Below, piece after piece: positions 12,525-28,889 of a stretch of 33,421 nucleotides of DNA; position 1 is the stretch's first letter; every line of letters starts with the position of its first letter. The notes beneath the pieces are model-generated. The model was not told where the DNA came from. It did not search any database and was given only the letters and a program-made list of their open reading frames with translations. The position numbers and the translations under genes are program-made. The DNA is taken from NCBI GenBank assembly GCA_016210925.1, contig JACQTF010000097.1, positions 1 to 33,421 of the forward strand. The letters run 5' to 3'. Origin of the DNA: Acidobacteriota bacterium (GTDB taxonomy: Bacteria; Acidobacteriota; UBA6911; JACQTF01).

Positions 12525-12607
12525 GAAACCTGAAACCTGAGACCTGAGCCGTAGAACTGAAGGAACCTCTTGGTTTCAGGTCTCAGGTCTCGGGTCTCAG
12601 AGTTTCG
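12525..12607. repeat. Heptamer inverted-repeat element, GAAACCT family (rpoA–rplQ)
   Basis: The left arm (12525–12548) has tandem GAAACCT/GAGACCT heptamers. The right arm (about 12572–12607) has the complementary GGTTTCA/GGTCTCA units. A centre of about 23 bp separates them. It fills almost the whole spacer. Confidence 0.9.
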
Positions 12608-12617
12608 GATTTGTGTT

Positions 12618-13607
12618 TTACGTTGCTTCTTCCACAATACGACCCTGCTGGTCCACCTTCATGCCGAAGTTCAGGCCCATCTCGACCAGGATCTCCTTGA
12701 TCTCGTTCAAGGACTTGCGACCGAAGTTCTTGGTCTTGAGCATCTCGGCTTCGGATTTCTGCACCAGTTCGCCGATCGTCCTGATGTTGGCGTTCTTCAG
12801 GCAGTTGTACGACCGGACCGACAGCTCCAGCTCGTCCACGGACTTCTGCAGGTACTCGTTCTTCTTGGCTGCTTCCATGTCTACCTTTTCTTCTTCGGTG
12901 CCCGTGTCCGGCTGCTCCTCGAAGCTGATGAAGATAAACATGTGGTCCTTCAGGATCTTGGCCGCTCGACCCAGTGCCTCCTCTGGAGACATGCAGCCGT
13001 TGGTCCAGACCTCGATGTTGAGCTTGTCGTAGTCGGTGGCCTGTCCCACCCGGGCCGGCTCCACGTAGAAATTGACCTTGCGCACGGGGGAATGGACGGA
13101 GTCCACGGGGACATAGCCCAGGGGAAGGTCGTCGTCGAAGTTCTCATCGCAGCTGACGTAGCCGCGGCCGCGCTTCACCCGCATCTCCAGCTTCAGCTTG
13201 CCGCCCTCGTTGACAGAGGCGATGTGGACGTTGGGGTCCATGATCTCTACGTCCGGGTCCGGCTTGATGTCTCCTGATTTGAGCTCTCCCGCGCCAGTGG
13301 ATTCCAGGTACAGCGTCTTGGCGTGATCCACATGAAGTTTCAGGGGGATTTGTTTCGCGTTCATGATGATGTCGATGGCGTCTTCGGTCACGCCCGGGAT
13401 GGGAGAGAACTCATGGAGGACACCCTCGATCTTGACCGCGGTGATGGCCGCCCCTTCGATGGAAGCAAGCAGAATGCGGCGCAGGGCGTTCCCGATGGTG
13501 GTGCCGTAACCGCGCTCGAACGGTTGCGCGTAATAGTGACTGTACTTTTCGGTCAAGCTTTCCGCGTTGCACAGCAATCTTTTCGGTCGTTGAAAGGCGA
13601 TAGTCAT
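12618..13607 (-). CDS. rpoA: DNA-directed RNA polymerase subunit alpha
   Basis: 329 residues. The N-terminal assembly domain (about 1–235) includes the [20 protein letters not shown]-type block, here starting [15 protein letters not shown]. The C-terminal domain (about 260–315), with [11 protein letters not shown]…IRTIGEL…[18 protein letters not shown], carries the helix-hairpin-helix surface that contacts UP elements and activators. A charged linker with [14 protein letters not shown] (about 235–255) joins them. Its place between rpsD and rplQ is the standard alpha-operon position. The ATG at 13607 follows an AGATGTAACGAGA leader. Confidence 0.98.
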
Positions 13608-13714
13608 TCTCGTTACATCTCCGATTTATTTTTGAGTCCGATGGTCCTTGCTCCTGGCCCGCGCCGCGGACCCACGCAAGATGGGGTCGCGTGTGGCCGG
13701 GGCTGCGGGACCGT

Positions 13715-14350
13715 TCACTTCGAGTACAACTCGACGATGTACTGCTCGTTGAGAGGCAGGCGGATGTCGTCGCGCCGGGGCACCCGCTTGACGGAGCCCT
13801 GGAGCTTTTCCGAATCGAGTTCCAGCCAGTCGGGGACGCCACCCCGGCCCGACACGGTCTCCACCGAGTACCGGATCTGCTCGTTCTGAGCGCTCCTCTC
13901 TCGAACGGAGACCACGTCCCCCTCCTCCACCAAATAAGATGGAACGTCTACTTTCCTGCCCTTGACCTGGATGTGGCCGTGATTGACCAGCTGCCGGGCC
14001 TGGGCGTGGGAGGTGGCAAAGCCCAGGCGGAGCACCACGTTGTCCAGGCGGCGCTCCAGGAACGAGAGCAGGTTCTCGCCCGTGATCCCCCTCTGGCGCT
14101 CGGCCCGTTCGAAATACAGCTTGAACTGGCGCTCCAGCACGCCGTACATGCGCTTCACCTTTTGCTTTTCCCGCAGTTGCAGGCCGTAGCCGACCACCTT
14201 CTTAGGACGCCGGTCCCGACCATGCTGGCCAGGGGCCCCGCTCCGTTTTTCGATGGCGCAGGAGTCCTTGAAGCAACGTTCCCCCTTCAGAAAGAGCTTC
14301 ATGCCCTCTCGTCGGCAGAGCCTGCAGACCGCTCCTCGATATCGTGCCAA
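13715..14350 (-). CDS. rpsD: 30S ribosomal protein S4 (zinc-binding form)
   Basis: 211 residues. It nucleates assembly of the 30S body and often represses its own operon. The N-terminal Cys9, Cys12, Cys26 and Cys31 (CRLC … CFKDSC) are intact, so this is the C+ zinc-binding paralogue form. The S4 RNA-binding domain with [27 protein letters not shown] is at about 95–125. The start codon is TTG at 14350: TTGGCACGATATCG gives the expected M-A-R-Y, and GAGGAGG lies 8–9 nt upstream. Confidence 0.97.
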
Positions 14351-14372
14351 ATGGTTAACCTCCTCGTTTTTT

Positions 14373-14439
14373 AAACCCGAAACTCTGAAACCTGAGACTC
14401 GAAACTCCTGGTTTCTGCGGTCTCAGGTTTCAGGTTTCT
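14373..14439. repeat. Heptamer inverted-repeat element, GAAACCT family (rpsK–rpsD)
   Basis: The left arm has AAACCCG/AAACTCT/GAAACCT units. The right arm is GGTCTCAGGTTTCAGGTTTC (14420–14439). It lies between the rpsK stop and the rpsD ribosome-binding site. Confidence 0.88.
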
Positions 14440-14445
14440 AATTTG

Positions 14446-14844
14446 TCACACCCGACGGCGCTTCGGCGGGCGGCAGCCGTTGTGGGGGATTGGGGTCACG
14501 TCCCGGATGGCCCGCACCTCCAATCCCGCCGTCTGCAGGGCGCGGATGGCGGACTCTCGCCCCGCCCCTGGTCCCCTGACCCGGACCTCGAGGGTCTTCA
14601 TGCCGTAAAAGTCACGGACCTGATTGGCCGCAGACTGGGCTGCCTGCTGGGCGGCAAAAGGCGTCCCTTTCCTAGACCCCTTGAATCCTACGGAGCCCGC
14701 GCTGGCCGAAGCCAGCAGGTTCCCCTGCAGGTCCGTGATGCTCACGATGGTGTTGTTGAACGTGGCCTGAATATGGGCCAGGCCTTGGGGGACCAGCTTC
14801 CGCTCTTTTTTCTTTCCCGCACGCTTCGGCTTCTTGTCTACCAT
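14446..14844 (-). CDS. rpsK: 30S ribosomal protein S11
   Basis: 132 residues with the conserved [13 protein letters not shown] strand pair, [19 protein letters not shown] and the C-terminal [18 protein letters not shown]. The last block lines the platform near the mRNA exit. A lysine-rich N-terminal tail of about 17 residues precedes the core, as in most bacteria. The ATG at 14844 has AGGAG 6 nt upstream. It is followed by rpsD through a repeat-filled spacer. Confidence 0.98.
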
Positions 14845-14891
14845 CTAAACTCCTCGCGGCTCAAACGTCCATCGTCCCAAAGGACCGACCA

Positions 14892-15269
14892 CTACTTTGT
14901 CTCCTTTTTCTTCTTGGCCAGGATGGCGCGCCGGGGCCCCTTCCTGGTGCGGGCGTTGGTGTGGGTTCGCTGGCCGCGCACCGGGAGGCCCCGCCTGTGG
15001 CGCAATCCGCGGTAGCAGCCGATGTCCATCAGCCGCTTGATGTCCATCTGGACGTCCTTCCGCAGATCTCCTTCGATCTTGTAGTTCTGGACCTGGTTCC
15101 GGACCTTGACGATCTCATCCTCGGACAGGTCCTTGACTCTCTTATGGATATCCACGCCGGCGTCCCGGCAGATCCGGTTCGCCAGGGACCGGCCGATGCC
15201 AAAGATGTAGGTCAGCCCCACCTCCAAACGCTTGTTGGGAGGAATGTCCACGCCTGCGATTCTCGCCAC
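14892..15269 (-). CDS. rpsM: 30S ribosomal protein S13
   Basis: 125 residues; first gene of the alpha operon. [30 protein letters not shown] at the start, [29 protein letters not shown] near the end and a Lys-rich tail are diagnostic. S13 forms intersubunit bridges and touches the P-site tRNA through its tail. The start codon is GTG at 15269, with AGGAGG 9 nt upstream. Confidence 0.98.
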
Positions 15270-15284
15270 TGTTTCAAACCTCCT

Positions 15285-15343
15285 GGTTTTCAGTTTTCAG
15301 GTTTCAGCTTTTGCTGACAACTGAAAACTGACGACTGACAACT
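15285..15343. repeat. Heptamer inverted-repeat element, AACTGAC family (rpmJ–rpsM)
   Basis: The left arm is GGTTTTCAGTTTTCAGGTTT. The right arm has ACTGAAA/ACTGACG/ACTGACA heptamers. This element mixes AACTGAC- and GAAACCT-type units and directly abuts the rpmJ stop codon (15345–15347). Confidence 0.88.
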
Positions 15344-15344
15344 A

Positions 15345-15458
15345 CTATCCTTGCCGCTGCTTGTGCTTGGGATTGACGCAAATGACCCGCACCACGCCCT
15401 TGCGGTGAACGATCTTGCATTTGTCACAAATCTTTCTGACGGACGCCCGGACTTTCAT
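15345..15458 (-). CDS. rpmJ: 50S ribosomal protein L36 (zinc-binding form)
   Basis: 37 residues reading [17 protein letters not shown], then [19 protein letters not shown]. Cys11, Cys14, Cys27 and His32 form the single zinc site of the C+ L36 type. The gene sits in its usual place between infA and rpsM, starting 8 nt after the infA stop. The ATG at 15458 has GAGG upstream (GGTGAGGCG). It is short but complete. Confidence 0.96.
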
Positions 15459-15466
15459 CGCCTCAC

Positions 15467-15685
15467 CTATTTGTAGCGGTAAATGATCCGTCCCCGGGAC
15501 AGGTCATAGGGGGAGAGTTCCACCAGGACCCGGTCCCCAGGCAGAATGCGGATGAAGTTCTTGCGCATCTTCCCTGAGATATGGGCCAGCACCTGGTGCT
15601 TGTTCTCCAACTCCACGCGAAACATGGCGTTGGGCAGGGTCTCCTTCACATACCCCATGACCTCAATGGCCTCTTCCTTAGGCAT
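15467..15685 (-). CDS. infA: Translation initiation factor IF-1
   Basis: 72 residues forming one S1-like OB fold. [40 protein letters not shown] and [15 protein letters not shown] are all canonical. IF-1 blocks the ribosomal A site during initiation. The ATG at 15685 matches the family N-terminus; an in-frame TTG at 15700 would add five residues encoded by the repeat and is unlikely. No clear ribosome-binding site exists, because a heptamer element occupies the leader. Confidence 0.97.
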
Positions 15686-15694
15686 AGAACGTTC

Positions 15695-15752
15695 AGTCAA
15701 ACGTCAATCGTCAATCGTCAAACGTGAACCGAATGACGATTGACCAATGACG
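15695..15752. repeat. Heptamer inverted-repeat element, GTCAATC family (infA–map)
   Basis: The left arm is five near-identical heptamers (GTCAAAC GTCAATC GTCAATC GTCAAAC and a degraded unit). The right arm is GAATGACGATTGACCAATGA. The two arms pair across a very short centre, and the element ends 8 bp before the map stop codon. Confidence 0.9.
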
Positions 15753-15760
15753 AAGATTTC

Positions 15761-16519
15761 TCAGGCGCCATGGTCCAACCGGGTGAGCACTTCGGGCCCG
15801 TTGGAGGTGCAGGCGACGGTGTGCTCAAAGTGAGCCGAGTAGCTGCCGTCGGCGGTAACGGCGGTCCAGCGATCCGACAAGATCCGTACCTCGGGCCCCT
15901 TCATGTTCACCATGGGCTCGATGGCCAGCACCATGCCCTCCCGCAGCCGGGGCCCGCGGCCGGGCTCCCCGAAATTGGGAACCTGCGGGTCCTCATGGAG
16001 GGCCTGCCCGATCCCGTGGCCCACGAAATCCCGGACCACGGAGTAGCCGAACGATTGCACGTACTTCTGGATCCGGTGCCCGATGTCCGAGACCCGGTTG
16101 CCGACTCGAACCTGCTGGATCCCCAGTTCCAGGGACTCCCGTGTCACCTGCAGCAATCTTTCCACCTCAGGGACGATGGTCCCCACCGGGAAGGTAACGG
16201 CCGCGTCGCCGTAGTAGCTGTCTACGATCGCCCCGGCGTCCACGCCCACGATGTCTCCCTCCCGGAGCTTGTAGTCGTTGGGGATGCCGTGGACCACTGC
16301 CTCGTTGACCGAGGTGCACAGGGTGGCCGGGTAGCCGCGATACCCCTTGAACGCCGGTCGGGCACCCGCCCTCTGGATGAAGTCCTCGGCAAACCGGTCC
16401 AGCTCCTTCGTGGTCACCCCGGGCCGGACCAGGGGACGGAGTTCTTTCAGGAGCCGGGCCACGATCTGGCACGCTTCTCGGATCTTCGTCATTTCTTTTT
16501 GGGACTTGCAGATGATCAT
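15761..16519 (-). CDS. map: Methionine aminopeptidase, type I
   Basis: 252 residues. The pita-bread metallopeptidase fold removes the initiator Met from nascent proteins. The five metal ligands are visible: Asp in VDAGA (about 94), Asp in YYGDAAVTF (about 105), His in DFVGHGIG (about 168), Glu in LAIEPM (about 201) and Glu in AHFEHTV (about 232). The substrate-side His is in AVVHGIP (about 77). No zinc-finger N-terminal extension is present. It lies 31 bp downstream of adk, the common spc-operon order. Confidence 0.97.
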   Translation of the reverse strand: MIICKSQKEMTKIREACQIVARLLKELRPLVRPGVTTKELDRFAEDFIQRAGARPAFKGYRGYPATLCTSVNEAVVHGIPNDYKLREGDIVGVDAGAIVDSYYGDAAVTFPVGTIVPEVERLLQVTRESLELGIQQVRVGNRVSDIGHRIQKYVQSFGYSVVRDFVGHGIGQALHEDPQVPNFGEPGRGPRLREGMVLAIEPMVNMKGPEVRILSDRWTAVTADGSYSAHFEHTVACTSNGPEVLTRLDHGA

Positions 16520-16550
16520 ATCCTACGGGTCCCGGCGATTCACCCAACGC

Positions 16551-17198
16551 TCACACCGCCTCGACGACGGCGGCAATACGCCGAAAGATCTCATCGGCGT
16601 CCCCGTCGCCATCCACGTGCTTCAGGTGGCTCCGGCTCTGGTAGTACTGGATCACCGGTTCGGTCTGGCGCCGGTGTACTTCCAGTCGCGTACGGACCAC
16701 GTCCTCGCGGTCATCGCTCCGCTGCACCAGCGTCCCGCCGCAGGCTTGGCATCTCCCGTCCGACGGCGATGGCGACGCATACACGTTGTAGAGGCGTGCG
16801 CACCGGGCGCACTGTCTGCGTCCCGAGAGGCGACGCACCAAAGTCTCTTCGTCCAGGAGCAGGTGGATGGCCTGCAGCCGCACCGACCCATTCAGCATGC
16901 GATCCAGCATCTCCGCCTGACGGACCGTGCGGGGGAAGCCGTCCAGGATGAACCCCCGCGCGCAATCGGGGAGGGCCACCCGCTCCCGGATGATGTCCAT
17001 CATGATTTGGTCGGACACCAGCTCACCCCGGTCCATGATGGCCTGGGCCTTTTTCCCCAACTCGCTTCCCTTTCGGGCCTCCTCCCGCAGGATGTCGCCG
17101 GTTGAAATCTGGGGCAGGCCGTATTTTGCTTCCAGCTTCTTGGCCTGAGTGCCCTTACCGGCTCCCGGAGGACCCAACAAAATGACTGCTCGTTTCAC
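16551..17198 (-). CDS. adk: Adenylate kinase
   Basis: 215 residues catalysing ATP + AMP to 2 ADP. The Walker A motif GPPGAGKGTQ is near residue 9 and the AMP site near STGDILREE (about 30). GFILDGFPRTVRQAE is at about 81–95. The LID domain carries the zinc pattern CARC…CQAC (about 127–152), typical of the long zinc-binding form. The start is GTG at 17198 (VKRAVILLGPPG), with an adjacent GTG at 17201. The same frame stays open far upstream through secY, but that is antisense-frame noise. 41 bp separate it from the secY stop. Confidence 0.97.
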   Translation of the reverse strand: MKRAVILLGPPGAGKGTQAKKLEAKYGLPQISTGDILREEARKGSELGKKAQAIMDRGELVSDQIMMDIIRERVALPDCARGFILDGFPRTVRQAEMLDRMLNGSVRLQAIHLLLDEETLVRRLSGRRQCARCARLYNVYASPSPSDGRCQACGGTLVQRSDDREDVVRTRLEVHRRQTEPVIQYYQSRSHLKHVDGDGDADEIFRRIAAVVEAV

Positions 17199-17239
17199 CA
17201 CACAGGCCAGCCTGCCGCCTGGCAGCACAGCGGCCGCCC

Positions 17240-18643
17240 TTAGCCACGGCGTCCCCGGATCCGTCCCTTCTTCAAGAACCCATCGTAATGGCGCATGATG
17301 AGCTGCGACTCGATTTGCTGAACCGTGTCCATGGCTACGCCCACCACGATCAGCAGGGAAGTGCCACCGAAGTAAAACGTCACGCCCAGGCCCGTGGTGA
17401 AAAAGTCCAGCCCGGCCCGGTTCAGGAAATCGTCCAGGGCCGGACCCACGACGGGAACGGGTTGCACCTTGAAGCCGGTCATCAGGAACTCCGGCAGCAG
17501 GGACACACCCACCAGGTACAGGGCTCCCGCAAACGTCAGCCGGCTCAAGATCCGATCCACGTGCTGCGCCGTGTTCTTGCCCGGTCGGATGCCTGGAATG
17601 AAGCCGCCGTACTTCCGCAGGTTCTCCGCCACCTCGTCCGGGTTGAAGATGATGCTCACGTAAAAGAAACAAAAGAAGATGATTCCGACCACGTAGATGA
17701 GGTTGTACAGAGGCATCCCCTGCCCCAACTGCCGGGACAGCTCCTGCATCCAACCGAACTTGGCCACGACGCCCAGGGTGGTGGGGAAGGCGACAATGGA
17801 GGCGGCAAAGATCACCGGGATGACTCCCCCGGAGTTGACCCGCAGGGGCAGGTGGGTGGACTGGCCGCCGTAGACCCGGCGTCCCACCACCCGCTTGGCA
17901 TACTGTACCGGGATCTTCCGCTGGCCCCGCTCCACGAACACGATGGCAGCCACCACCAACAGCATCATGGCCAGCAGGATCAGGATGGTCGGCACACCCC
18001 AGGTATGCTCCCGGAAGTTGATATAGATGGCCTGGATGGCCTGGGGCAGGCCCACCACGATCCCCGCAAAGATGATCAACGAAATGCCGTTCCCGATGCC
18101 ACGCTGGGAGATCTGTTCCCCGATCCACATGATAAACGTGGTGCCCGTGGTCAGGGTGATCATGCTCATGAAGCGGAAGCCCCAGCCCGGATGGGGAACC
18201 ACGGCGCGCCCCGCGGAGGCCGCTGTCTGCTCCAATGCCAGGGCCGTGGCCAGGGATTGGAACATGCAGAGGGCAACGGTCAGGTAACGGGTGTATTGAG
18301 TGATCTTCCTGCGCCCCAGTTCTCCTTCCTTGGAAAGCTTCTCCAGGTAGGGCCACACCACGGTCAACAATTGCAAGATGATGGACGCCGTGATGTACGG
18401 CATGATCCCCAGGGCGAAGATGCTGAGCCGTCGCAGGTTCCCTCCGGAAAAGATGTCCAGGAAGCCGAAAATGGTTCCTTGCTGTTGCTGGAAAAAGTCC
18501 TCCAGCGCCTGGGCGTCTATTCCGGGGGTTGGGATCCACGCCCCTACTCGGTAGACCGCCAGCAAGCCCAGCATGTAGAGGATTCGCTTCCTCAATTCGG
18601 GGATATTCCAGATATTCTTAATGCTCTCTGCGATGCGTTCCAT
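17240..18643 (-). CDS. secY: Protein translocase subunit SecY
   Basis: 467 residues with ten predicted membrane helices. The N-terminal cytoplasmic helix (IKNIWNIPELRKRILYML), the plug-region PTPGIDAQAL, GIMPYITASIILQLL in helix 2, PVQYAKRV and NSGGVIPVIFAAS in the middle, and FYVSIIFNPDEVAENLRKYG near the end are diagnostic. It forms the Sec channel with SecE and SecG, which are not in the window. The 42-bp spacer upstream carries a one-armed GTCAA-type heptamer tract. Confidence 0.98.
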   Translation of the reverse strand: MERIAESIKNIWNIPELRKRILYMLGLLAVYRVGAWIPTPGIDAQALEDFFQQQQGTIFGFLDIFSGGNLRRLSIFALGIMPYITASIILQLLTVVWPYLEKLSKEGELGRRKITQYTRYLTVALCMFQSLATALALEQTAASAGRAVVPHPGWGFRFMSMITLTTGTTFIMWIGEQISQRGIGNGISLIIFAGIVVGLPQAIQAIYINFREHTWGVPTILILLAMMLLVVAAIVFVERGQRKIPVQYAKRVVGRRVYGGQSTHLPLRVNSGGVIPVIFAASIVAFPTTLGVVAKFGWMQELSRQLGQGMPLYNLIYVVGIIFFCFFYVSIIFNPDEVAENLRKYGGFIPGIRPGKNTAQHVDRILSRLTFAGALYLVGVSLLPEFLMTGFKVQPVPVVGPALDDFLNRAGLDFFTTGLGVTFYFGGTSLLIVVGVAMDTVQQIESQLIMRHYDGFLKKGRIRGRRG

Positions 18644-18648
18644 AGTTC

Positions 18649-18672
18649 GTCAACCGTCAAACGTTAATGGTC
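18649..18672. repeat. Short GTCAATC-family heptamer tract (secY–rplO)
   Basis: Three heptamer-like units (GTCAACC GTCAAAC GTTAATG) occur in the short spacer without a clear second arm. It looks like a decayed or partial element. Confidence 0.6.
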
Positions 18673-18684
18673 CATGGTGTCTCT

Positions 18685-19176
18685 CTAGGGCGCGGCGGTC
18701 TTTGGGCTCTGGGAGGGAGTTGGTTCCGCGGTCGCTTGTTCAACCCTGCCTCCCGCGAGGGCGATCTTCTCCGCCGCCGACTTGCTAAATTTGTGAGCCA
18801 CGACGGTGAGGCTCTTTTTCAGGTCGCCGTGGCCCAACACCTTCACCGGGAGTCGGTCATTCCGAACCAAACCGCGCTCCAGAAGTTGTTTCGCGTCCAC
18901 GCGCATTCCCTCTTTGAACCGATCGAGCTTGCCCACGTTGACGATGGCATACTCCGTCTTGAAGATATTCGTGAACCCTCGTTTGGGGAGCCGGCGGTGG
19001 AGGGGCATCTGCCCACCCTCGAAGCCCGGACGGACGGACGAGCCCGCCCGGGACTTTTGCCCCTTGCTGCCCCTCCCGGCAGTCTTGGCCAGGCCGGACC
19101 CGGGTCCCCTGCCCACTCGCTTGGGCTTCTGAGTGGCTCCTTTCGGGGGCTTCAACGAATTCAACGCCATGGCCAT
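18685..19176 (-). CDS. rplO: 50S ribosomal protein L15
   Basis: 163 residues. The glycine-rich start ([25 protein letters not shown]), [18 protein letters not shown] and the [26 protein letters not shown] end are diagnostic of L15, a late-assembly protein of the 50S. The tail is an extra Ala/Pro/Thr-rich stretch of about 15 residues. The ATG at 19176 is chosen because GAGG lies 9 nt upstream; ATGs at 19191 (directly after the rpmD stop) and 19170 are alternatives. Confidence 0.96.
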
Positions 19177-19191
19177 GACGGAGCACCTCAT

Positions 19192-19437
19192 CTAGGACGA
19201 CACCACTTCCACCAGGTGTCGGACCTTCTCCACCATCCCGCGGATATTGGGCGTATCGGGCCGCTCCACCACCTGGTTCAGCTTGCGGAAGCCCAAGCCC
19301 TTGATGATGATCTTGTGCTTCTTGTGGGCCCCGATGGCGCTCCGCACATAGCGGAGCCTCACGGTGGCCTGAGTTGGCTTCCGGGGCCGTGTGGTCTTCT
19401 TTGCCCTCTTTTCCGGTGCCTTCTTGGCGACCGTCAT
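19192..19437 (-). CDS. rpmD: 50S ribosomal protein L30 with basic N-terminal extension
   Basis: 81 residues, against about 60 in most bacteria. The core from [14 protein letters not shown] through [23 protein letters not shown] to VRHLVEV is normal. The first ~22 residues are a Lys/Arg/Ala-rich tail that may reach into rRNA. Its ATG overlaps the rpsE stop (ATGA) and its stop abuts the first possible rplO start, so translation of the three is likely coupled. Confidence 0.96.
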
Positions 19438-19934: not shown

Positions 19935-19957
19935 TCTTTCCTCCCTCTGATAAATGC

Positions 19958-20040: not shown

Positions 20041-20043
20041 TCT

Positions 20044-21066: not shown

Positions 21067-21077
21067 TCTGAAGCTCC

Positions 21078-21171: not shown

Positions 21172-21172
21172 C

Positions 21173-21565: not shown

Positions 21566-21657
21566 CATCTCGTCAACTCCCATGGCGTCCCGCCGTCCGC
21601 TCCTCTCGCGCTCCATGTTTTCGTGGCCCATGGCGCTGGAGGCGCTCGGCGGGAAAG

Positions 21658-21843: not shown

Positions 21844-21851
21844 ATCTTTTT

Positions 21852-21942
21852 AAAACCCAAAACCCAAAACCTGAAACTTGAAACCCAAAACCCAGATGTC
21901 ATGCTACCTAGTTTTAGGTTTCAGGTTTTAGAGTTTTAGGTT
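21852..21942. repeat. Heptamer inverted-repeat element, GAAACCT family (rpsN–rplE)
   Basis: The left arm has AAAACCC AAAACCC AAAACCT GAAACTT GAAACCC AAAACCC units in perfect 7-bp register. The right arm has GTTTTAGGTTTCAGGTTTTA and one more unit. The centre is about 17 bp. Confidence 0.92.
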
Positions 21943-21947
21943 CGCAT

Positions 21948-22493
21948 TTACGTTCTTTTTATAAAGGGCATTCCCAGCTGGGAGAGCAGCTGCTTCGCCT
22001 CGTGATCAGTTTTCGCCGTGGTGCAGATGGTGACGTTCATGCCCCGGATCTTGTCCACCTTGGCGTAGTCCACCTCGGGAAAGATCATCTGGTCCCGCAA
22101 CCCGAGGGTAAAGTTTCCGCGGCCGTCGAAAGATTTATCCGACACGCCCTTAAAATCGCGGACCCGCGGCAAGGCGATGTTCACCAAACGGTCAAAGAAC
22201 TCGTACATCCTGTCGCCTCGCAGGACAACACAAGCACCGATGGGCATACCCTTCCGGAGTTTGAAGGCGGAAATGGCCTTCTTGGCCCGGGTGACGACGG
22301 GCCGCTGCCCGGTGATGGTCGCGATCTCCTCTCCCGCCACGTCCATCACCTTGGGATTTTGAAGGGCGTCGCCCAATCCCATGTTGACGACGATCTTTTC
22401 CAGCCTGGGCACCGCCATCACGTTCTTGTAATTGAACTGTTTGGTCAGCGCCGGGATGATCTCTTTCTTGTAATGCCCTTTGAGCCTTGCCAT
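21948..22493 (-). CDS. rplE: 50S ribosomal protein L5
   Basis: 181 residues. [43 protein letters not shown] is the canonical start, and [45 protein letters not shown] is the conserved C-terminal region. L5 binds 5S rRNA and contacts S13 and the P-site tRNA. The ATG at 22493 is fixed by the family; the frame upstream runs through repeat sequence. The ribosome-binding site is weak. Confidence 0.98.
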
Positions 22494-22502
22494 AAAGCTT
22501 CT

Positions 22503-22589
22503 AAACCTGAAACTCTGAAACCTAAAACCTGAAACGTGAAACTGAGAGCTGAAAGCCAACCGTTAAGTGCCCTTAGTTTCAGGTTTCAC
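22503..22589. repeat. Heptamer inverted-repeat element, GAAACCT family (rplE–rplX)
   Basis: A left arm of about seven units (AAACCTG, AAACTCT, GAAACCT, AAAACCT, GAAACGT, GAAACTG and degraded copies). A short right arm, AGTTTCAGGTTTCACT, reaches the rplX stop codon. The asymmetry suggests decay of one side. Confidence 0.88.
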
Positions 22590-22590
22590 T

Positions 22591-22914
22591 TTAGTCCAGC
22601 TCTGCGCCGCACTTCTTGCACACCCGGACCTTCTTGCCGTCTTCATGGGTCTTGAACCCGACCCGGGCGTGCTCGCTGCACTCCTTGCAGATGACCTGCA
22701 CCTTGGATAGAGGAATCGGGGCCGCTTCCGGCAGGATTCCGCCCTGGATGTTCTTGGCTGGGTTGGGCCGGATATGCTTTTTGAGCACGTTGACGTTTTC
22801 CACCAGCACTTTCCCCGACGCGGGAAAGACCTTCACCACCCGGCCAGTCTTTCCCCGGTCCTTGCCGCTGAGGACAAACACCTGGTCTTCCTTCTTAACG
22901 TGCAATCGACTCAT
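22591..22914 (-). CDS. rplX: 50S ribosomal protein L24 (with C-terminal zinc ribbon)
   Basis: 107 residues. The KOW motif KKEDQVFVLSGKDRGKTGRVVKVFP (about 7–31), ENVNVLKKHIRP and GGILPEAAPI are canonical. The C-terminus keeps ICKEC…VRVCKKCG, a CxxC…CxxC zinc ribbon found in part of the family. L24 starts 50S assembly. The ATG at 22914 gives MSRLHVKKED; the longer frame starting at 22938 begins in repeat sequence. Confidence 0.97.
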   Translation of the reverse strand: MSRLHVKKEDQVFVLSGKDRGKTGRVVKVFPASGKVLVENVNVLKKHIRPNPAKNIQGGILPEAAPIPLSKVQVICKECSEHARVGFKTHEDGKKVRVCKKCGAELD

Positions 22915-22924
22915 GCTCTTTTCT

Positions 22925-23000
22925 CGTCGATTCGTCACTCGTCAAACGTCACCCGCCAAACGTGAAACACGAATGACGATTGACCTTTGACCAATGACGG
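22925..23000. repeat. Heptamer inverted-repeat element, GTCAATC family (rplX–rplN)
   Basis: The left arm has CGTCACT CGTCAAA CGTCACC CGCCAAA CGTGAAA units. The right arm has AATGACG ATTGACC TTTGACC AATGACG. Register is 7 bp throughout, with a very short centre. Confidence 0.9.
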
Positions 23001-23003
23001 TTC

Positions 23004-23372
23004 TTAGAGCACCTCGGGGGCCAGGGAGACGATCTTCATGAACCGCCTGTCCCGCAGCTCCCGGGCCACGGGCCCAAACACCCGGGTTCCGAGAGGCTCG
23101 TGCTGGTCGTTGATGAGCACCGCCGCGTTCTGGTCGAACCGAATGTAAGAACCGTCCTTGCGCCGGGTCTCCTTCCGAGTCCGAACGATGACCGCCTTGA
23201 CCACTTCTCCCTTCTTGACGGCGCCCTCGGGGGCGGCCTCCTTGACGGAAGCCGTGATGACGTCACCCAGGCCCGCGAACCGCCCGGTGGAACCGCCGAT
23301 GGGCAAGATGCAGGAGATGCGGCGAGCGCCGGAATTGTCCGCCACCTCCAGGATCGTTCGCATTTGAATCAT
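23004..23372 (-). CDS. rplN: 50S ribosomal protein L14
   Basis: 122 residues, the standard length. [32 protein letters not shown] and the [17 protein letters not shown]…[26 protein letters not shown] end are diagnostic. L14 forms bridges with the 30S. First gene of the spc section, 49 bp downstream of rpsQ with no repeat between. Confidence 0.98.
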
Positions 23373-23421
23373 GGCTGCGTCACCAACCCGTTGCTTCTTT
23401 TCGTTCCTGCCTCAGGCGCCC

Positions 23422-23694
23422 TCACGTAGCCCGCTGGAGCACCTGGGCGACGCGCCAGCGCTTGCGCCGGCTCAGCGGCCGGCTCTCCACGATCAGGACT
23501 TTGTCGCCCACCTGGCACTCGCTCTTCTCGTCGTGGGCCATAAACCGGGCAGTGCGGCGGATGATTTTCTTGTACAGGGGTTCCTGGACGAACCGGTCCA
23601 CCCGCACCACCACCGTCTTCTGCATGGAGTTGGACGTCACGACGCCCACCTTCGTGTTCTTTTTCGCCCGGGGCCTGGTCTGTTGTTCCATCAT
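23422..23694 (-). CDS. rpsQ: 30S ribosomal protein S17
   Basis: 90 residues, one OB fold. [33 protein letters not shown], then [30 protein letters not shown], are canonical. The ATG at 23694 overlaps the rpmC stop (ATGA), and a second ATG follows at 23691. GGAG in the rpmC end serves as the ribosome-binding site, so the two genes are translationally coupled. Confidence 0.97.
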
Positions 23695-23891
23695 GCTTCT
23701 CCGGCGCGCACTTTCTCCCGGAGGACGGTCTTCACCCGGGCCAAGTCATGGCGGACGAGCTTCATCTTGGTGGCCTTCTCCAGCTGGCCTGTTGCCTTCT
23801 GGAACCGCAACCGGAAGAGCTGGTCTGCCAGGTGCTGTTCCTCCTGGCGCAATTCGTCCGTCCTCATCTCGCGCAGCTTGTGGGCTTTCAT
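23691..23891 (-). CDS. rpmC: 50S ribosomal protein L29
   Basis: 66 residues, a helical hairpin at the tunnel exit and part of the docking site for trigger factor and [41 protein letters not shown] and [13 protein letters not shown] are diagnostic. It begins one base after the rplP stop, with GGAGGG inside the end of rplP as its ribosome-binding site. Confidence 0.97.
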
Positions 23892-23892
23892 G

Positions 23893-24306
23893 TTACCCTC
23901 CCGGCCGGGAGACGAACTTGGTCGGAATGGGCAGCTTGTTGGCCGCCAGCCGCAAGGCTTCCCGGGCCGTTTCCTCCGTCACCCCTTCCATCTCGAACAA
24001 GATCCGCCCCGGTTTCACCACGGCCACCCATCCTTCCGGAGCGCCCTTTCCCTTGCCCATGCGGGTCTCCGCAGGCTTCTTGGTGATGGGCTTGTCCGGA
24101 AAAATCCGGATCCAGATCTTGCCCCCGCGCTTCACGAACCGGGTCATGGCGATTCGGGCTGCCTCGATTTGCTTGTCGGTGATCCACGCAGCCTCCAGGG
24201 CCTTCAGGCCATATTCGCCGAACTGCACTTCCGCCCCCCGGGTGGCCAGGCCCTTCATCCGGCCACGCTGTTGTTTCCGGTACTTGACTTTCGAGGGCAT
24301 CAACAT
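23893..24306 (-). CDS. rplP: 50S ribosomal protein L16
   Basis: 137 residues. [19 protein letters not shown] is the family N-terminus, so the ATG at 24306 is preferred over 24300. [54 protein letters not shown] and ILFEMEGV complete the protein, which lies at the A-site side of the peptidyl transferase centre. A heptamer element just upstream leaves no clear Shine-Dalgarno motif. Confidence 0.98.
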
Positions 24307-24310
24307 GGCA

Positions 24311-24378
24311 GTCGTCAGTTATCAGTTGTCAGTTTTCAGTTCAGCGCTCAGCTTTCGCTGACAACTGACAACTGACCA
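24311..24378. repeat. Heptamer inverted-repeat element, AACTGAC family (rpsC–rplP)
   Basis: The left arm has CAGTTAT CAGTTGT CAGTTTT CAGTTCA units. The right arm is CTGACAACTGACAACTGACC. It abuts the rpsC stop codon (24379–24381). Confidence 0.92.
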
Positions 24379-25020
24379 CTATGTTTTCTTCTTCTCCTCA
24401 AAGATCTCACCCTTGTAGATCCACACCTTCACGCCGATGACGCCGTACGTGGTATACGCTTCAGCGAAACCGTACTCGATATCCGCGCGCAGAGTATGCA
24501 AGGGAAGCCTTCCCAACAGGTACCATTCGGTGCGGGCGATCTCGGCGCCGTTGAGGCGGCCGGCGCAGCGCACTTTCACTCCCTGGGCCCCGAACCGCAG
24601 GGTGCTGTCCACGGCCCGCTTCATGGCCCGTCGGAACGCCACCCGCTTCTCCAGCTGCAGGGCGATGGACTCGGCCACCAGCTGGGCATCCAGCTCGGGC
24701 TTGTCGATCTCCTGGATGTTGATGAACACCTCCCGCTTGGTGGCGGCCTGCAGGTCATTCTTCAGCTTGTCGATCTCGGACCCCTTGCGTCCGATGATGA
24801 TGCCCGGTCGGGAGGTATAAATCAGGAGGGTCAGCTTGTTGGCTGCCCTCTCGGTCTCGATCCTGGAGATTCCCGCGTGGAAGAACCGCTTCTTCAGGCT
24901 CTTTTTGATGGTCAGGTCCTCGTGGAGCAGCTTGCCGTAGTCCTTCTTGGCGAACCACCGCGATCTCCAGGTCCGGGTGTATCCCAGGCGAAAACCAAAA
25001 GGATGAACTTTCTGTCCCAC
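24379..25020 (-). CDS. rpsC: 30S ribosomal protein S3
   Basis: 213 residues. [24 protein letters not shown], the KH-domain loop [16 protein letters not shown] (about 68–83), and the C-terminal [31 protein letters not shown] with [13 protein letters not shown] are canonical. S3 forms part of the mRNA entry helicase. The start codon is GTG at 25020, which shares one base with the rplV stop (TAGTG), implying coupled translation. Confidence 0.98.
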
Positions 25021-25391
25021 TATGCCTCCTCTTTTTCGCTGCCTTCGGCGGCGCCATCCGTGACGTGAATGGTGATGTGGCTCATCCGGCGCATCTGGCG
25101 GTACGCGCGGCCCATGGGCGCCGGCCGGACGCGCTTGCGGTACTTGGTCGGTCCCAGATCCACGCAGGCTCGGGAGATGAACAGGTCATCCACATCCAGC
25201 GTGGGTTTCTTCTGCTCGGCGTTGGCAATCGCGGAGCGCAGCACCTTTTCGATGGGGCGCCCGGCGCGCTTCCGGGTGTAGCGCAGGATGGAGAGCGCCT
25301 CGCCCACCTTCTTGCCCCGAATCAGGTCCACGACCAGCCGCGCCTTCTGCGGTGATCCCTTGATGTACCTGGCGATCGCCTTGGCTTCCAT
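25020..25391 (-). CDS. rplV: 50S ribosomal protein L22
   Basis: 123 residues. [49 protein letters not shown] and the tunnel-lining hairpin [29 protein letters not shown] are diagnostic; macrolide-resistance changes map to this hairpin in other species. An acidic tail of about 15 residues follows. The ATG at 25391 has AGG 5 nt upstream; the GTG at 25394 directly before it is less likely. Confidence 0.97.
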
Positions 25392-25404
25392 CACGCCTGC
25401 TTCT

Positions 25405-25447
25405 CGTCAACGGTCAATCGTCCATCGATGGAGGTTTGACGATTGGC
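25405..25447. repeat. Heptamer inverted-repeat element, GTCAATC family, short (rplV–rpsS)
   Basis: The left arm CGTCAACGGTCAATCG and right arm GTTTGACGATTGGC pair across about 13 bp. Fewer units than in other elements. Confidence 0.75.
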
Positions 25448-25464
25448 ATTCAGCATCTCGCTCG

Positions 25465-25749
25465 TCACTTCACCACCGTGGCCTTCTCTGCCTTGGACGA
25501 GTGGGCCCTGAACTGGCGGGTGGGGGAGAACTCTCCCAACTTGTGGCCCACCATGTTCTCGGTGAGGTACACCGGGATGAACTTTTTGCCGTTGTGGACC
25601 GCTAGGGTATGCCCGATCATCTCCGGCACGATGGTGGACCGGCGGGACCAGGTCTTGACCACGGACTTCTCCCGCCGCTGGTTTAGGGCGCTGATCTTCT
25701 TCATCAGCGCCTCGTCCACGAACGGCCCTTTTTTGAGGCTTCGAGCCAT
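25465..25749 (-). CDS. rpsS: 30S ribosomal protein S19
   Basis: 94 residues. [67 protein letters not shown] and the basic end are canonical. S19 partners S13 in the 30S head. The ATG at 25749 has AGAGG upstream; eight extra in-frame codons further upstream fall in repeat sequence and are not counted. Confidence 0.98.
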
Positions 25750-25758
25750 AATTCCTCT

Positions 25759-25824
25759 AAATCCAAACCCCAAAATCCAAAATTCCGGAGGGCTCTTGCT
25801 TTTAGATTTTGGATTTTAGATTTG
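25759..25824. repeat. Heptamer inverted-repeat element, AAATCCA family (rpsS–rplB)
   Basis: The left arm AATCCAAACCCCAAAATCCA and the right arm TTTTAGATTTTGGATTTTAG (25799 onward) form the only element of this sequence type in the window. The centre is about 15 bp. Confidence 0.88.
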
Positions 25825-25828
25825 TTTT

Positions 25829-26647
25829 TCATTTGCGGCGTTTCACGATAAAACGCCGGGTGCGCTTGTTGCGCCGCGTCTTGTAACCCTTCGTCGGCTG
25901 GCCCCACGGCGTGGTGGGGTGCTTCCCGAAGGTCTTGCCCTCCCCGCCGCCGTGGGGATGATCCACCGGGTTCATGGCGGTGCCCCGGACGGTGGGGCGG
26001 ATCCCCAGCCAGCGCCGGCGGCCCGCCTTTCCCACGCTCACGTTCTCGTGGTCCAGGTTGCCCACCTGGCCGATGGTGGCGTAGCACTCCACGTGGACCT
26101 TGCGCACCTCGCCCGAGGGCAGCTTGACCTGGGCGTATTCGTTCTCCTTGGCCAGGAGCTGGGCACCGGCGCCTGCGCTGCGGACCATCTGACCCCCCTT
26201 CCCGGGGCGCAGCTCGATGTTGTGGATGATGGTGCCCAGGGGAATGTTCTTCAGCGGGAGGCTGTTGCCGGGGATGATGTCCGCCTCGGGTCCCGCCACC
26301 ACGGTGGAGCCCACCTGCAGTCCCGCGGGAGCAATGATGTACCGTTTCTCCCCGTCCGCATAGTGAAGCAACGCGATCCGGGCCGACCGATTGGGGTCGT
26401 ACTCGACGGTGGCCACCCGGGCCAGGACGTTGCGCTTGTCCCTCTTGAAGTCGATGACCCTGTACCGGCGCTTGTGGCCCCCGCCGCGATGCCAGATCGT
26501 GATCCGGCCCCTGTTGCTCCGGCCACTGGTTCGCCTCTTGGGCTCCGTCAGGGCCTTTTCGGGCTCCCTGCGGGTCAGATCCTCAAAGGTCTGCACCGTG
26601 TGGAAGCGGCGGCTGAACGGCGTCGGCTTAAATGTCTTGATTCCCAT
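25829..26647 (-). CDS. rplB: 50S ribosomal protein L2
   Basis: 272 residues. [17 protein letters not shown] starts it; GRNNRGRIT-type sequence (here [26 protein letters not shown]), [21 protein letters not shown] and the functional loop [20 protein letters not shown] with the conserved histidine near 229 are all present. L2 is needed for subunit joining and peptidyl transfer. The ATG at 26647 is directly preceded by a repeat element and has only AGG about 10 nt upstream. Confidence 0.98.
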
Positions 26648-26653
26648 TTTTTA

Positions 26654-26738
26654 AAAACCTGAAACCCGAAACCTGAAACCTGAAACTCGGAACCCTCTCT
26701 CAGAGGTTTTAGGTTTCAGGTTTCAAAGTTTCAGGTTT
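26654..26738. repeat. Heptamer inverted-repeat element, GAAACCT family (rplB–rplW)
   Basis: The left arm has AAAACCT GAAACCC GAAACCT GAAACCT GAAACTC in register. The right arm has AGGTTTTAGGTTTCAGGTTT and a further unit. One of the cleanest copies. Confidence 0.93.
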
Positions 26739-26746
26739 GCTCTTCA

Positions 26747-27037
26747 TTAGACCGTTTCGAAGAACTCGGGAAGTTTCTGGCCCGCCTTGAGCTTCACGTA
26801 TGCCTTCTTCCAGTCGGGACGGTGGCCACGGCTCCGGCCCATGCGTTTCAACTTCCCGTGAAAGTTGGCCGTGCGGACCTGGTCCACTTTTACGTTCAGG
26901 AGCCTCTCGACGGCCTCTTTGATCTGCTGTTTGTTGGCCCGGCGATCCACCTTGAACGTGAGCACGCTATCGGTCTCCTTGAGCGCGGTGCTCTTCTCGG
27001 TGATCATCGGTGCCCGCAGGATATCGTATTTGTCCAT
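26747..27037 (-). CDS. rplW: 50S ribosomal protein L23
   Basis: 96 residues. MDKYDILRAPMITEKSTALKE, TFKVDRRANKQQIKEAVERLLNVKVDQVRTANF and GRSRGHRPDWKKAYVKL are diagnostic. L23 is the main docking site for trigger factor and SRP at the tunnel exit. The ATG at 27037 gives the usual N-terminus; GTG at 27043, overlapping the rplD stop (GTGA), is the alternative. Confidence 0.97.
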   Translation of the reverse strand: MDKYDILRAPMITEKSTALKETDSVLTFKVDRRANKQQIKEAVERLLNVKVDQVRTANFHGKLKRMGRSRGHRPDWKKAYVKLKAGQKLPEFFETV

Positions 27038-27039
27038 GA

Positions 27040-27669
27040 TCACGACGGCTTCAAAGTCTTTTGCAGCGCCTGAATGGCCTGCTTAGAGAACATCAGTTGG
27101 TCGTGGTACAACACGTCGTGGATGTTCAGGCTGCTCAAGTCTGCCAGGGTGACCCCCGGGAGATTCCGGCTGGAAAGGAGCAAGTTGCGGTTCCGCAAGG
27201 AATCCACCACCAGCAGCGTGGACTGGATGTCAAAGCGGGCCAGGACTTCCGCCAGGGACCTGGTCCTGTGGTTTGCCAGGCTGAACTCATCCACCACCAA
27301 CAGCTTGCCGTCCTGGAGCTTGGCCGATAGCGCACCGCGCAGGGCGCCGCGGCGCTTCTTTTCCGGGAACGCGTAGGCGTATGTACGCGGGCGCGGCCCG
27401 TGAACCGTCCCTCCGTGGCGCCACAGGGGACTGCGGATGCTTCCGATGCGGGCCCGTCCCGTCCCTTTTTGCCTCCATAATTTCTTCCCGCTTCCGGACA
27501 CTTCACCCCGGGTCTTGGTGGACGCGGTTCCTTTACGCTGCGCCGCCAGGAAGTGGCGCACCGCCTCCCAGATCAGCCCCGTATTGGGCTCGATGCCAAA
27601 CACCTGGTCGTCGAGGTTTAATTTTTCGACCACCTGATTTTCCAAATTTTTGACTTCGACTTCCGGCAT
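27040..27669 (-). CDS. rplD: 50S ribosomal protein L4
   Basis: 209 residues. The tunnel-reaching loop TRGEVSGSGKKLWRQKGTGRARIGSIRSPLWRHGGTVHGPRPRTYAYAFPEKKRRGALR (about 53–112) is complete. The C-terminal KLLVVDEFSLANHRTRSLAEVL and LLSSRNLPGVTL blocks are present. In enterobacteria L4 represses the S10 operon; no matching leader can be seen here. The ATG at 27669 has GAGAGAGAG just upstream. Confidence 0.97.
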   Translation of the reverse strand: MPEVEVKNLENQVVEKLNLDDQVFGIEPNTGLIWEAVRHFLAAQRKGTASTKTRGEVSGSGKKLWRQKGTGRARIGSIRSPLWRHGGTVHGPRPRTYAYAFPEKKRRGALRGALSAKLQDGKLLVVDEFSLANHRTRSLAEVLARFDIQSTLLVVDSLRNRNLLLSSRNLPGVTLADLSSLNIHDVLYHDQLMFSKQAIQALQKTLKPS

Positions 27670-27679
27670 CTCTCTCTCG

Positions 27680-27764
27680 TGAAACTCGAAACCCGAAACC
27701 TCAAACCTGAAATGCAGAACGGCTAGTCTTAGGTTTCAGGTTTCGAGTTTCGGGTTTTGGGTTT
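27680..27764. repeat. Heptamer inverted-repeat element, GAAACCT family, overlapping the end of rplC
   Basis: The left arm (27680–27712) has GAAACTC GAAACCC GAAACCT CAAACCT units. The right arm (27729–27764) has AGGTTTC AGGTTTC GAGTTTC GGGTTTT GGGTTT and is translated: it contains the rplC stop codon (27729–27731) and encodes its last residues. Confidence 0.93.
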
Positions 27765-28382
27765 GAGAATGAGAAGGTAGCTGCCGTTGGCGCCTGGCAC
27801 CGAGCCGCGGACCACCAGCACGTTTTGTTCCCCGTTCACCCGAACGACCTGCAGGTTCCTGGCGGTGACCCGCTCGTTTCCCATTCGGCCTGCCATCCGC
27901 TGTCCCGGCCAGACCCGGGAGGGAAACGAGGATGCTCCGATGGACCCGGGGGCCCGGTGGAACATGGAGCCGTGGGTGGCGGCGCCGCCGCGGAAGTGGT
28001 GGCGCTTGACCACGCCGGCAAAGCCACGGCCCTTGCTGGTCCCGACCACGTTCACGCGCTCCCGCTCCTTGAACAGCGCGTCCACCAGCAACTGATCGCC
28101 CACTTTCAGATCGTCGCCCTCCTCCACCTTGAACTCCCGCAGGATCCGGGTAGGGAGAACCCCGGCTTTTTTGAAGTGGCCCTCCCGGGGTTTTGTCACC
28201 TTCCTGGCAGGCTTACCTTCGACGAAACCCAGCTGCACCGCGTTGTAGCCGTCGTTCTTCAGGGTCTTCCGCTGGACCACCACGCAGGGGCCCGCCTGGA
28301 TCACTGTGGCGGGCACCACGCTGCCGTCCTCCCGAAACAACTGCGTCATGCCTATTTTCTTTCCGATTAACCCCTCGACCAT
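27729..28382 (-). CDS. rplC: 50S ribosomal protein L3, C-terminus formed by a repeat
   Basis: 217 residues. [28 protein letters not shown], the [20 protein letters not shown]…[27 protein letters not shown] loop (which reaches the peptidyl transferase centre) and [19 protein letters not shown] are canonical. The final 11 residues ([11 protein letters not shown]) are encoded by the right arm of a heptamer repeat, the 7-bp unit being read in three successive frames. The ATG at 28382 is the family start; an upstream TTG at 28394 is unlikely. The ribosome-binding site is weak. Confidence 0.97.
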
Positions 28383-28406
28383 ACCCGTGAGCAAAACTCA
28401 AAACCT

Positions 28407-28470
28407 AGTTTTCAGTTGTCAGTTCTCAGTGGTCAGTTTCCTGAGAACTGACAACTGACCACTGAAAACT
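28407..28470. repeat. Heptamer inverted-repeat element, AACTGAC family (rplC–rpsJ)
   Basis: AGTTGTCAGTTCTCAG (28414–28429) pairs perfectly with CTGAGAACTGACAACT (28441–28456): a 16-bp stem with an 11-nt loop. Further partly paired heptamers lie outside. The best-preserved hairpin of the AACTGAC family. Confidence 0.93.
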
Positions 28471-28474
28471 GAAG

Positions 28475-28801
28475 CTATTTGTGTTCGGGTCCGAAGGCTT
28501 TGATCTCCACGTCGATGGCCGCGGGCAGCTCCAGCTTCATCAAGGCGTCCACCGTCTGGGGAGTCGGTTCCAGAATGTCCACCAACCGCTTGTGGGTGCG
28601 AATTTCAAATTGCTCCCGGGACTTTTTATCCACGTGGGGCGAGCGAAGCACCGTATAGCGGTTGATATCCGTCGGGAGCGGGATGGGTCCCGAGACCTTC
28701 GCCCCCGTCCGCTTGGCAATCTCCACAATCTCGGAAGCGCTCTGATCCAGCACCCTGTAATCGTAAGCCTTCAGCCTGATCCGAATTTTCTCTTGAATCA
28801 T
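28475..28801 (-). CDS. rpsJ: 30S ribosomal protein S10
   Basis: 108 residues. [91 protein letters not shown] are diagnostic. S10 (NusE) also joins transcription antitermination complexes. First gene of the S10 section, following tuf across a repeat-filled spacer. The C-terminal ~5 residues (GPEHK) extend slightly past the usual end. Confidence 0.98.
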
Positions 28802-28808
28802 CTCAAAG

Positions 28809-28887
28809 AACCAAACCCGAAACCCAAAACCTGAAATCTGAAACCTTTGGTCTCAGCTTGAGAGTTTGAGGTTTCAGGTTTCAGGTT

Positions 28888-28889
<2 letters not shown>
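28809..28889. repeat. Heptamer inverted-repeat element, GAAACCT family (rpsJ–tuf)
   Basis: The left arm has AAACCCG AAACCCA AAACCTG AAATCTG AAACCTT. The right arm is GAGGTTTCAGGTTTCAGGTT and runs into the tuf stop codon: the TGA at 28888–28890 belongs to the outermost TGAAACC unit. Confidence 0.92.

Follow-up and report, generated by a model that had tools for sequence, protein, structure and literature searches.

What kind of element fills the gaps between the ribosomal-protein genes of an Acidobacteriota bacterium (assembly GCA_016210925.1), and how did it come to be there? The window, i.e. the whole stretch analysed, is the 33,421-nt contig JACQTF010000097.1 (C66 of the 240 contigs that make up this 3.32 Mb genome, labelled G000). 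In it, 18 spacers of the ribosomal-protein operons harbour tandem 7-bp units, arranged for the most part as two facing arms. These are probably copies from several families of short palindromic elements, dispersed and non-autonomous, which coexist in the genome and spread by hairpin copying, a reading to which a probability of about 0.6 is assigned. It is favoured because only common descent explains together the arm order, the fixed position of an 8-mer within the arm, the copy number and the nesting of one element in another.

All of the more than 30 spacers of the rplQ-to-tuf region were read on the mRNA strand, and Tandem Repeats Finder (TRF) was run independently. This reading reproduced the 18 spacers, the four unit types and the 10/3/4/1 split given in an earlier note on this DNA (GAAACCT, AACTGAN, GTCANTS and AAATCCA, respectively), and TRF called period-7 arrays at the same places. 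The arms face each other at nearly all sites, as the note had stated, the exceptions being a single arm in the rplO-secY spacer and AACTGA/GAAACCT-type composites in the rpmJ-rpsM and rpsJ-rplC spacers. The features are listed below in window coordinates; no strand is assigned to the elements, and z denotes the RNA fold score against shuffles.

12093..30072, minus strand: host operons rplQ...rpsJ-tuf, all genes on this strand
12525..12600: GAAACCT-type hairpin, rpoA-rplQ spacer, z -5.7
14373..14438: GAAACCT-type hairpin with the 8-mer variant GAAACTCT in one arm, rpsK-rpsD spacer, z -6.1
15282..15346: composite, AACTGAN-type arms flanking a GAAACCT-type arm, rpmJ-rpsM spacer, z -6.2
15696..15752: GTCANTS-type hairpin, map-infA spacer, z -3.7
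18645..18665: lone GTCANTS-type arm (antisense reading SANTGAC), no hairpin, rplO-secY spacer, z +0.6
19959..20040: GAAACCT-type hairpin, rplR-rpsE spacer, z -3.8
20410..20500: GAAACCT-type hairpin with 8-mer arm, rplF-rplR spacer, z -8.7
21079..21170: GAAACCT-type, one long and one short arm, rpsH-rplF spacer, z -1.4
21852..21943: GAAACCT-type hairpin with 8-mer arm, rplE-rpsZ spacer, z -7.4
22503..22588: GAAACCT-type hairpin with 8-mer arm, rplX-rplE spacer, z -3.7
22923..22998: GTCANTS-type hairpin, rplN-rplX spacer, z -6.0
24307..24383: AACTGAN-type hairpin, rpsC-rplP spacer, z -6.0
25400..25450 (limits approximate): short GTCANTS-type hairpin, rpsS-rplV spacer, z -1.5
25759..25823: AAATCCA-type hairpin, rplB-rpsS spacer, z -2.8
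26655..26738: GAAACCT-type hairpin with 8-mer arm, rplW-rplB spacer, z -7.2
27681..27764: GAAACCT-type hairpin, rplC-rplD spacer, z -4.8
28384..28472: AACTGAN-type hairpin followed by a GAAACCT-type remnant, rpsJ-rplC spacer, z -5.6
28813..28890: GAAACCT-type hairpin, its first units overlapping the tuf stop codon, tuf-rpsJ spacer, z -5.2

Genome statistics were drawn from 605 kb of sampled stretches of this genome, 249 kb of which were picked regardless of hits. At a strict threshold, 357 kb yielded 40 arrays at lag 7, three at lag 8, which belong to an octamer family, and none at lags 4, 5, 6, 9, 10, 11, 12 or 13, while second-order Markov sequence yielded none at all; the 249 kb gave 13 arrays at lag 7, four at lag 8 and none at 5, 6, 9, 10 or 11. 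The 7-bp periodicity is therefore above background (40 arrays against 0), as had been supposed, and period 8 is the sole other period of which this can be said. The doubled GAAACCT unit (GAAACCTGAAACCT) matched the genome 71 times and its reversed control not once. The families are found genome-wide and throughout the phylum, although they are strongly over-represented in ribosomal-protein operons. Beyond the four types of the window, the 605 kb contained two heptamer families (GGATCGA and GCTGANN) and one octamer family (GGAAGGCT / AGCCTTCC), the latter two-armed and of fixed polarity like the heptamers, at the following sites.

C117 (L119:9357-9486): octamer-family element
C155 (L102:19052-19149): octamer-family element
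C5 (L091:2117-2194): octamer-family element

The element consists of two facing arms of ~28-45 bp, each containing 4-6 of the 7-bp units, separated by a short loop that is not conserved. Within the unit, 4-5 positions are conserved and 2-3 vary in every family; in the AACTGA family it is the seventh base that varies (most commonly A, then C), and the units are paired in inverted order. No GGG tract occurs in GAAACCT, AACTGAN, GTCANTS, AAATCCA or GGATCGA.

A single arm order per family was observed in all 83 adjacent inverted pairs (GAAACCT 42:0, GTCANTS 14:0, GCTGANN 11:0, AACTGAN 7:0, GGATCGA 5:0, octamer 3:0, AAATCCA 1:0; the 11 pairs of GCTGANN partly overlap the AACTGAN family). The observation that the order never reverses within a type thus extends from the window to the genome, and since an inverted repeat reads identically on both strands, the order is intrinsic to the element and independent of gene strand. 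Among adjacent arrays found de novo, 35 of 36 in this genome were inverted rather than direct; in other genomes there were 82 inverted pairs against 4 direct ones, along with 2 ambiguous cases and 14 of unrelated arrays. The de novo clustering also gave a few pairs of opposite polarity, which look like units that are nearly palindromic or adjacent families that were joined at a single mismatch. The AACTGA, GCTGA and GTC families keep the arm order of this genome in other genera.

The GAAACCT arm follows a 7-8-7-7 plan (AAACCT-GAAACTYT-GAAACCT-GAAACCT-GAAAC), and in almost all of the 39 aligned arms that bear the 8-mer it is the second unit from the sharp outer end, a position which independent slippage does not predict. 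An arm of this kind, AAACCTRAAACTYTRAAACCT, has ~148 genomic copies at up to two mismatches, its reversed control none. At L106:4374-4511 a complete GGATCGA hairpin lies within the loop of an intact GAAACCT element, which reads as the insertion of one family into another. Self-spreading, one of the two origins put forward in the note, agrees with the copy number of the fixed arm and with this nested element. The other, expansion by slippage, may account for the long homogeneous arrays of some relatives; the GAAACCT arm, however, is fixed and non-uniform, so this family was not simply expanded by slippage, and its arm is not a free-running satellite.

The same data bear on a neutral origin, in which slippage would expand heptamer satellites in gaps and template switching at quasi-palindromes would make or repair the facing arm, with neither mobility nor function. 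Such an origin is rather unlikely. It would accommodate the dominance of period 7 in dozens of genomes with different units, as in published surveys (PMC6344855; PMC4679880, citing Mrazek 2007), the long homogeneous runs of relatives such as G214 (about nine or more uniform AACTGAC units), the local duplications of whole arms at L099 and L101, and the arms matched to each other in GTCANTS (p 0.002) and GCTGANN (p 0.03), the only families in which such matching was found. Absolute polarity in every family is not to be expected of independent inversions, however, and the unmatched GAAACCT arms, the constant place of the 8-mer, the dispersed copies and the nested intact element likewise speak against it.

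Mobility raises the question of an enzyme. The elements could be a family of REPINs, hairpin-forming doublets of repetitive extragenic palindromic (REP) sequences, moved by one of the genome's own REP-associated tyrosine transposases (RAYTs), and the inverted doublets with variable spacer, their extragenic position downstream of genes and the presence of three Y1_Tnp genes in the genome are all in keeping with this. Nevertheless, the outer ends of 52 arms carry GTAG in no case and CGTC in one, and no heptamer array lies beside any of the three genes. Moreover, the Y1_Tnp of C179 is flanked by a different, ordinary REP, which elsewhere occurs in inverted pairs. A RAYT-moved family is hence disfavoured and very improbable.

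L170 (C179:6584-9778), locus 1501-1695: Y1_Tnp (REP-associated tyrosine transposase) gene, with GGGCACGGCTTCAGCCGTGCCC palindromes at 1252-1275 and 2046-2092

The GGGCACGGCTTCAGCCGTGCCC pairs, ~120-150 bp apart, were seen at L095:8467/8588 and L100:8533/8679. Ordinary REPINs and heptamer elements coexist in this genome.

With genes called by a home-made gene caller, and with single hits of GCTGANN excluded as unreliable (22 in the Markov control), array density per 10 kb amounted to 0.38 in coding sequence, 35.6 in codirectional spacers (~94-fold the density in genes), 29.7 where the flanking genes converge and 7.6 where they diverge. About one-tenth of the arrays in the sample of this genome lie between convergent genes, and the median distance from stop codon to arm is 10-12 nt. 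The same placement has been reported for REPs, downstream of genes (PMC3733652), and for the Xanthomonas heptamers (PMC4692102). Confinement to gaps, as stated in the note, is thus evident; its explanation by frame-shift is incomplete, because the scarcity between divergent genes points to promoter avoidance as well. The notion that the families supply stop codons in three frames was rejected: the arm carrying TGA varies by family, and the octamer has none.

Among codirectional spacers of 60-160 nt, arrays were present in 16 of 18 within the ribosomal-protein operons as against 18 of 64 in the unbiased remainder (p 4e-6). The corresponding figures are 11 of 16 and 5 of 53 (p 7e-6) in G115, a genome that belongs to another class of the phylum and has other heptamers. 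The strong over-representation in ribosomal-protein operons is therefore found in two distant lineages. No relative nearer than class level was detected among the genomes searched; the L5 protein shares at most 73% identity with named genomes, mostly metagenome-assembled genomes of Acidobacteriota. Occupancy per gene pair correlates between one 20-species genus and other Terriglobales (rho 0.82), and more weakly between that genus and the present genome (rho 0.51, p 0.004).

Across 379 orthologous ribosomal-protein spacers of ~25 Acidobacteriota, period 7 was found in 51%, period 8 in 5.5% and periods 6 and 9 in 0.3-0.5%; within a single genus of 20 species the values were 49% and 9% for periods 7 and 8, and 0.3% for periods 6 and 9. 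Period 7 is dominant in dozens of genomes whose units differ. Counting heptamers in this genome and its relatives and aligning orthologous spacers, both proposed in the note, revealed dispersed families here, period-7 arrays in the relatives, and differing heptamer hairpins at the same spacers, some species being empty. Two relatives with 92% identical operons differ in the hairpins of several shared spacers. In the rpsM-rpsK spacer, species of one clade have stems built of AGGTGTC, AGGAGTC, TTRGCYN, GTAGCTN, TCAGTTC or an octamer, and in rplR-rpsE of one genus three families (CAGCT, CTAG and AATT words) were encountered, with none in some species. When species with arrays at the same site were compared (555 pairs), differences at two or more of the seven unit positions were seen in 52-69%, compared with 84% for different sites; part of the same-site difference may be drift of the unit rather than replacement, AGGTGTC and AGGAGTC being one base apart. 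In the relative G022, the tripled AACTGAN matches the whole genome 168 times; the reversed control pattern TCCAAAGTCCAAAG matches 117 times, which indicates that this genome has a TCCAAAG heptamer family of its own.

The exchange of words also bears on whether the arrays are binding sites, for a DNA-bending global regulator or an RNA-binding protein of the S1, Csp or Csr family, that reads a 4-5 nt word every 7 nt. The conserved and variable positions within each unit would suit such a protein, and similar proposals were made for the pairs of Geobacter metallireducens (PMC2700814) and for the TAACTGA repeats (PMC4679880). Yet a single genome uses several unrelated words, and from species to species one word takes the place of another at the same site, so that one cognate protein is hard to imagine, and between convergent genes control of the translation of a downstream gene is impossible. 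Protein-binding arrays are therefore considered improbable.

Spacers with lag-7 arrays in the 379-spacer set fold more stably (mean z -3.4 against shuffles) than those without (-1.4). Strong stems in transcribed gaps might suggest intrinsic terminators or attenuators, which would set graded expression levels within the operon. Such signals (a G+C-rich stem with a T-run) are, however, at the shuffled level, 20 found against 20.7 expected, no T-run follows the stems, and one terminator in nearly every gap would silence the distal genes, which makes this explanation scarcely credible. Neither promoter nor terminator signals exceeded shuffles in the host operons, and Rfam 15 gave no match at gathering score within the window. 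At the sensitivity used, terminators and known RNA families are excluded. The potential for pairing is strong, but the tests for covariation and wobble were weak or negative, so that a role in mRNA, be it the processing or stability suggested in the note, protection, or stop-to-start coupling, is plausible though hypothetical.

Several observations weigh against the reading of dispersed hairpin families or against a function of the stems. In the GAAACCT family an arm pairs with its own partner no better than with a stranger's (p 0.32), hence this pairing is not under strong selection. Substitutions on the mRNA strand are biased towards wobble-compatible changes (p 0.015 pooled), but the bias is weak and absent at two of four positions and was not taken as proof of selection on RNA. 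By no means all orthologous sites are occupied, and the spacers of Bryobacterales-like relatives are mostly short and empty, which argues that the hairpins are dispensable. The 31 doubly anchored GAAACCT spans (61-138 bp, a few overlapping) showed no target-site duplication, direct flank identity equalling that of shuffled sequence at 2-10 bp; old copies could have lost such duplications. No further inverted symmetry was present beyond the outer ends of their arms. Neither a transposase nor an autonomous copy was found, the search having covered Y1_Tnp in the sampled genome only. Finally, the ribosomal-protein bias could reflect an insertion preference for heavily transcribed DNA, and either such preferential landing or selection for a generic stem fits it. 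Traits of miniature inverted-repeat transposable elements are present (terminal inverted repeats, a defined end, multiple copies). The elements lengthen their spacers and are dispensable, yet recur at the same gaps.

If hairpin families are indeed dispersed in this manner, the whole hairpin would be copied as a unit, perhaps via a single-stranded intermediate as proposed for REPINs, and new copies would survive chiefly in transcribed 3' flanks. In the ribosomal-protein operons, a hairpin between a stop codon and the next start would be tolerated or favoured whatever its sequence, so that one family could replace another, and it might plausibly serve as a stem for mRNA end-protection or stop-to-start coupling. 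More tentatively, a modular, sequence-agnostic hairpin system may be envisaged, in which many mobile families of Acidobacteriota, each with its own 7-nt word and a constant order of arms, compete for the same intercistronic slots and selection in ribosomal-protein mRNAs keeps a hairpin there regardless of family; the 7-nt period would then stem from the copying enzyme or a folded intermediate rather than from the target gene. This wider picture is possible rather than probable.

Other features of these spacers were noted in passing. In L069 and L081 (Terriglobia), rpsH-rplF and other ribosomal-protein spacers have non-heptamer hairpins, AGACGCAGCTGGCTGCGTCTC with ACGTTGCAAGCAACGT, which adjoin a conserved AAGAGCTGA(A/T)TT-ATG start region. 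At Terriglobales loci such as L071, L075 and L083 (rplW-rplB, rpsH-rplF), lone 3' arms, GCTAAGAGCTGATTT, stand directly before starts and are conserved across species. They place GAG or AAGGA where a Shine-Dalgarno sequence would lie, so ribosome-binding sites may have been recruited from heptamer arms. Conservation of spacer length at the same site (18.9 v 27.5 nt, 0/500 permutations) was dropped as a sign of selection on hairpin size, because site-specific remainder sequence would yield the same pattern. Within the window but outside the reported span, the rpsL-rpsG spacer (32732-32796) contains a small inverted repeat, GGTCTC...GAGAC, in which no 7-bp units occur. The rplQ end of the operon adjoins a minus-strand gene (6239-11530) for a 1763-amino-acid protein with a Ser/Thr kinase domain, AAA, TPR repeats, GAF and a sigma-54 activator domain.

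The statement of the note that no named element matches was too strong in view of the repeats of Xanthomonas (PMC4692102), Geobacter metallireducens (PMC2700814) and Beggiatoaceae (PMC4679880). The GGGAATC/GGGANTN repeats of Xanthomonas (Rehm et al. 2015, PMC4692102) likewise consist of units of 7 bp in which two positions vary, usually some four to an array, and form 70-75 convergent inverted pairs per genome, in one orientation, intergenic, near the end of the upstream gene and seldom between divergent genes. Unlike the present elements, they are one G-rich family with quadruplex potential, and that paper does not describe exchange among several families, a fixed architecture of the arm or a bias towards ribosomal operons, all of which are seen here. 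The P6b stem of the Nostoc tRNA-Leu(UAA) intron (Kaasalainen et al. 2015, PMC4476775) is also a hairpin of degenerate heptamers (TDNGATT or NNTGAGT), swapped as a whole between heptamer classes at one place with its fold kept, but it is a single locus in a self-splicing intron, whereas dozens of intercistronic sites and many families are involved here. Classes 1-3 of the G. metallireducens 'global regulator binding sites' (Aklujkar et al. 2009, PMC2700814) are tandem heptamers (class 3, MTYCTGA) or octamers in opposite-strand pairs at variable distance, several classes per genome; they differ in their low copy number (~16-48 sequences per class), unit sequences and interpretation as protein sites.

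The AACTGAN family is a one-base relative of the TAACTGA repeats of Beggiatoaceae, Cyanobacteria and Bacteroidetes (MacGregor 2015, PMC4679880), which are similarly intergenic, near start codons and found in ribosomal-protein operons too, with category J over-represented. Those repeats are almost always direct (one inverted in 170), whereas the arms here nearly always face each other, and with its variable seventh base and inverted order AACTGAN falls outside the exact-TAACTGA direct-repeat definition. REPINs and tagged REPs (Bertels and Rainey 2011, PMC3116915; Di Nocera et al. 2013, PMC3733652) share with the present elements the inverted doublets with variable spacer, the large hairpins, the extragenic location downstream of genes and the occurrence of several families per genome, but REP units are themselves palindromic and GTAG/CGTC-tagged, while the arms described here have a 7-bp period, no tags and no link to a transposase; the elements nonetheless work like REPINs. 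Since convergent heptamers in Xanthomonas, pairs in G. metallireducens and stem replacement in Nostoc have been published, the kind of element is already known. The novelty lies in the coexistence of several families together with absolute polarity, a fixed plan of the arm, the exchange of families at orthologous sites, and a strong bias towards ribosomal operons in two lineages; this combination was not found in the literature searched, which was thin in subscription journals, nor did the search return a paper joining Acidobacteria, heptamer and inverted repeat.

Tandem heptamers have been reported to outnumber all other intergenic periodic repeats of prokaryotes, with 'no clear clue' as to what they do (PMC6344855). 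The four regularities of arm order, arm plan, ribosomal-operon bias and family exchange make the question 'why seven?' testable, and offer a tangible starting point for explaining why 7-letter repeats are so abundant in bacterial genomes.

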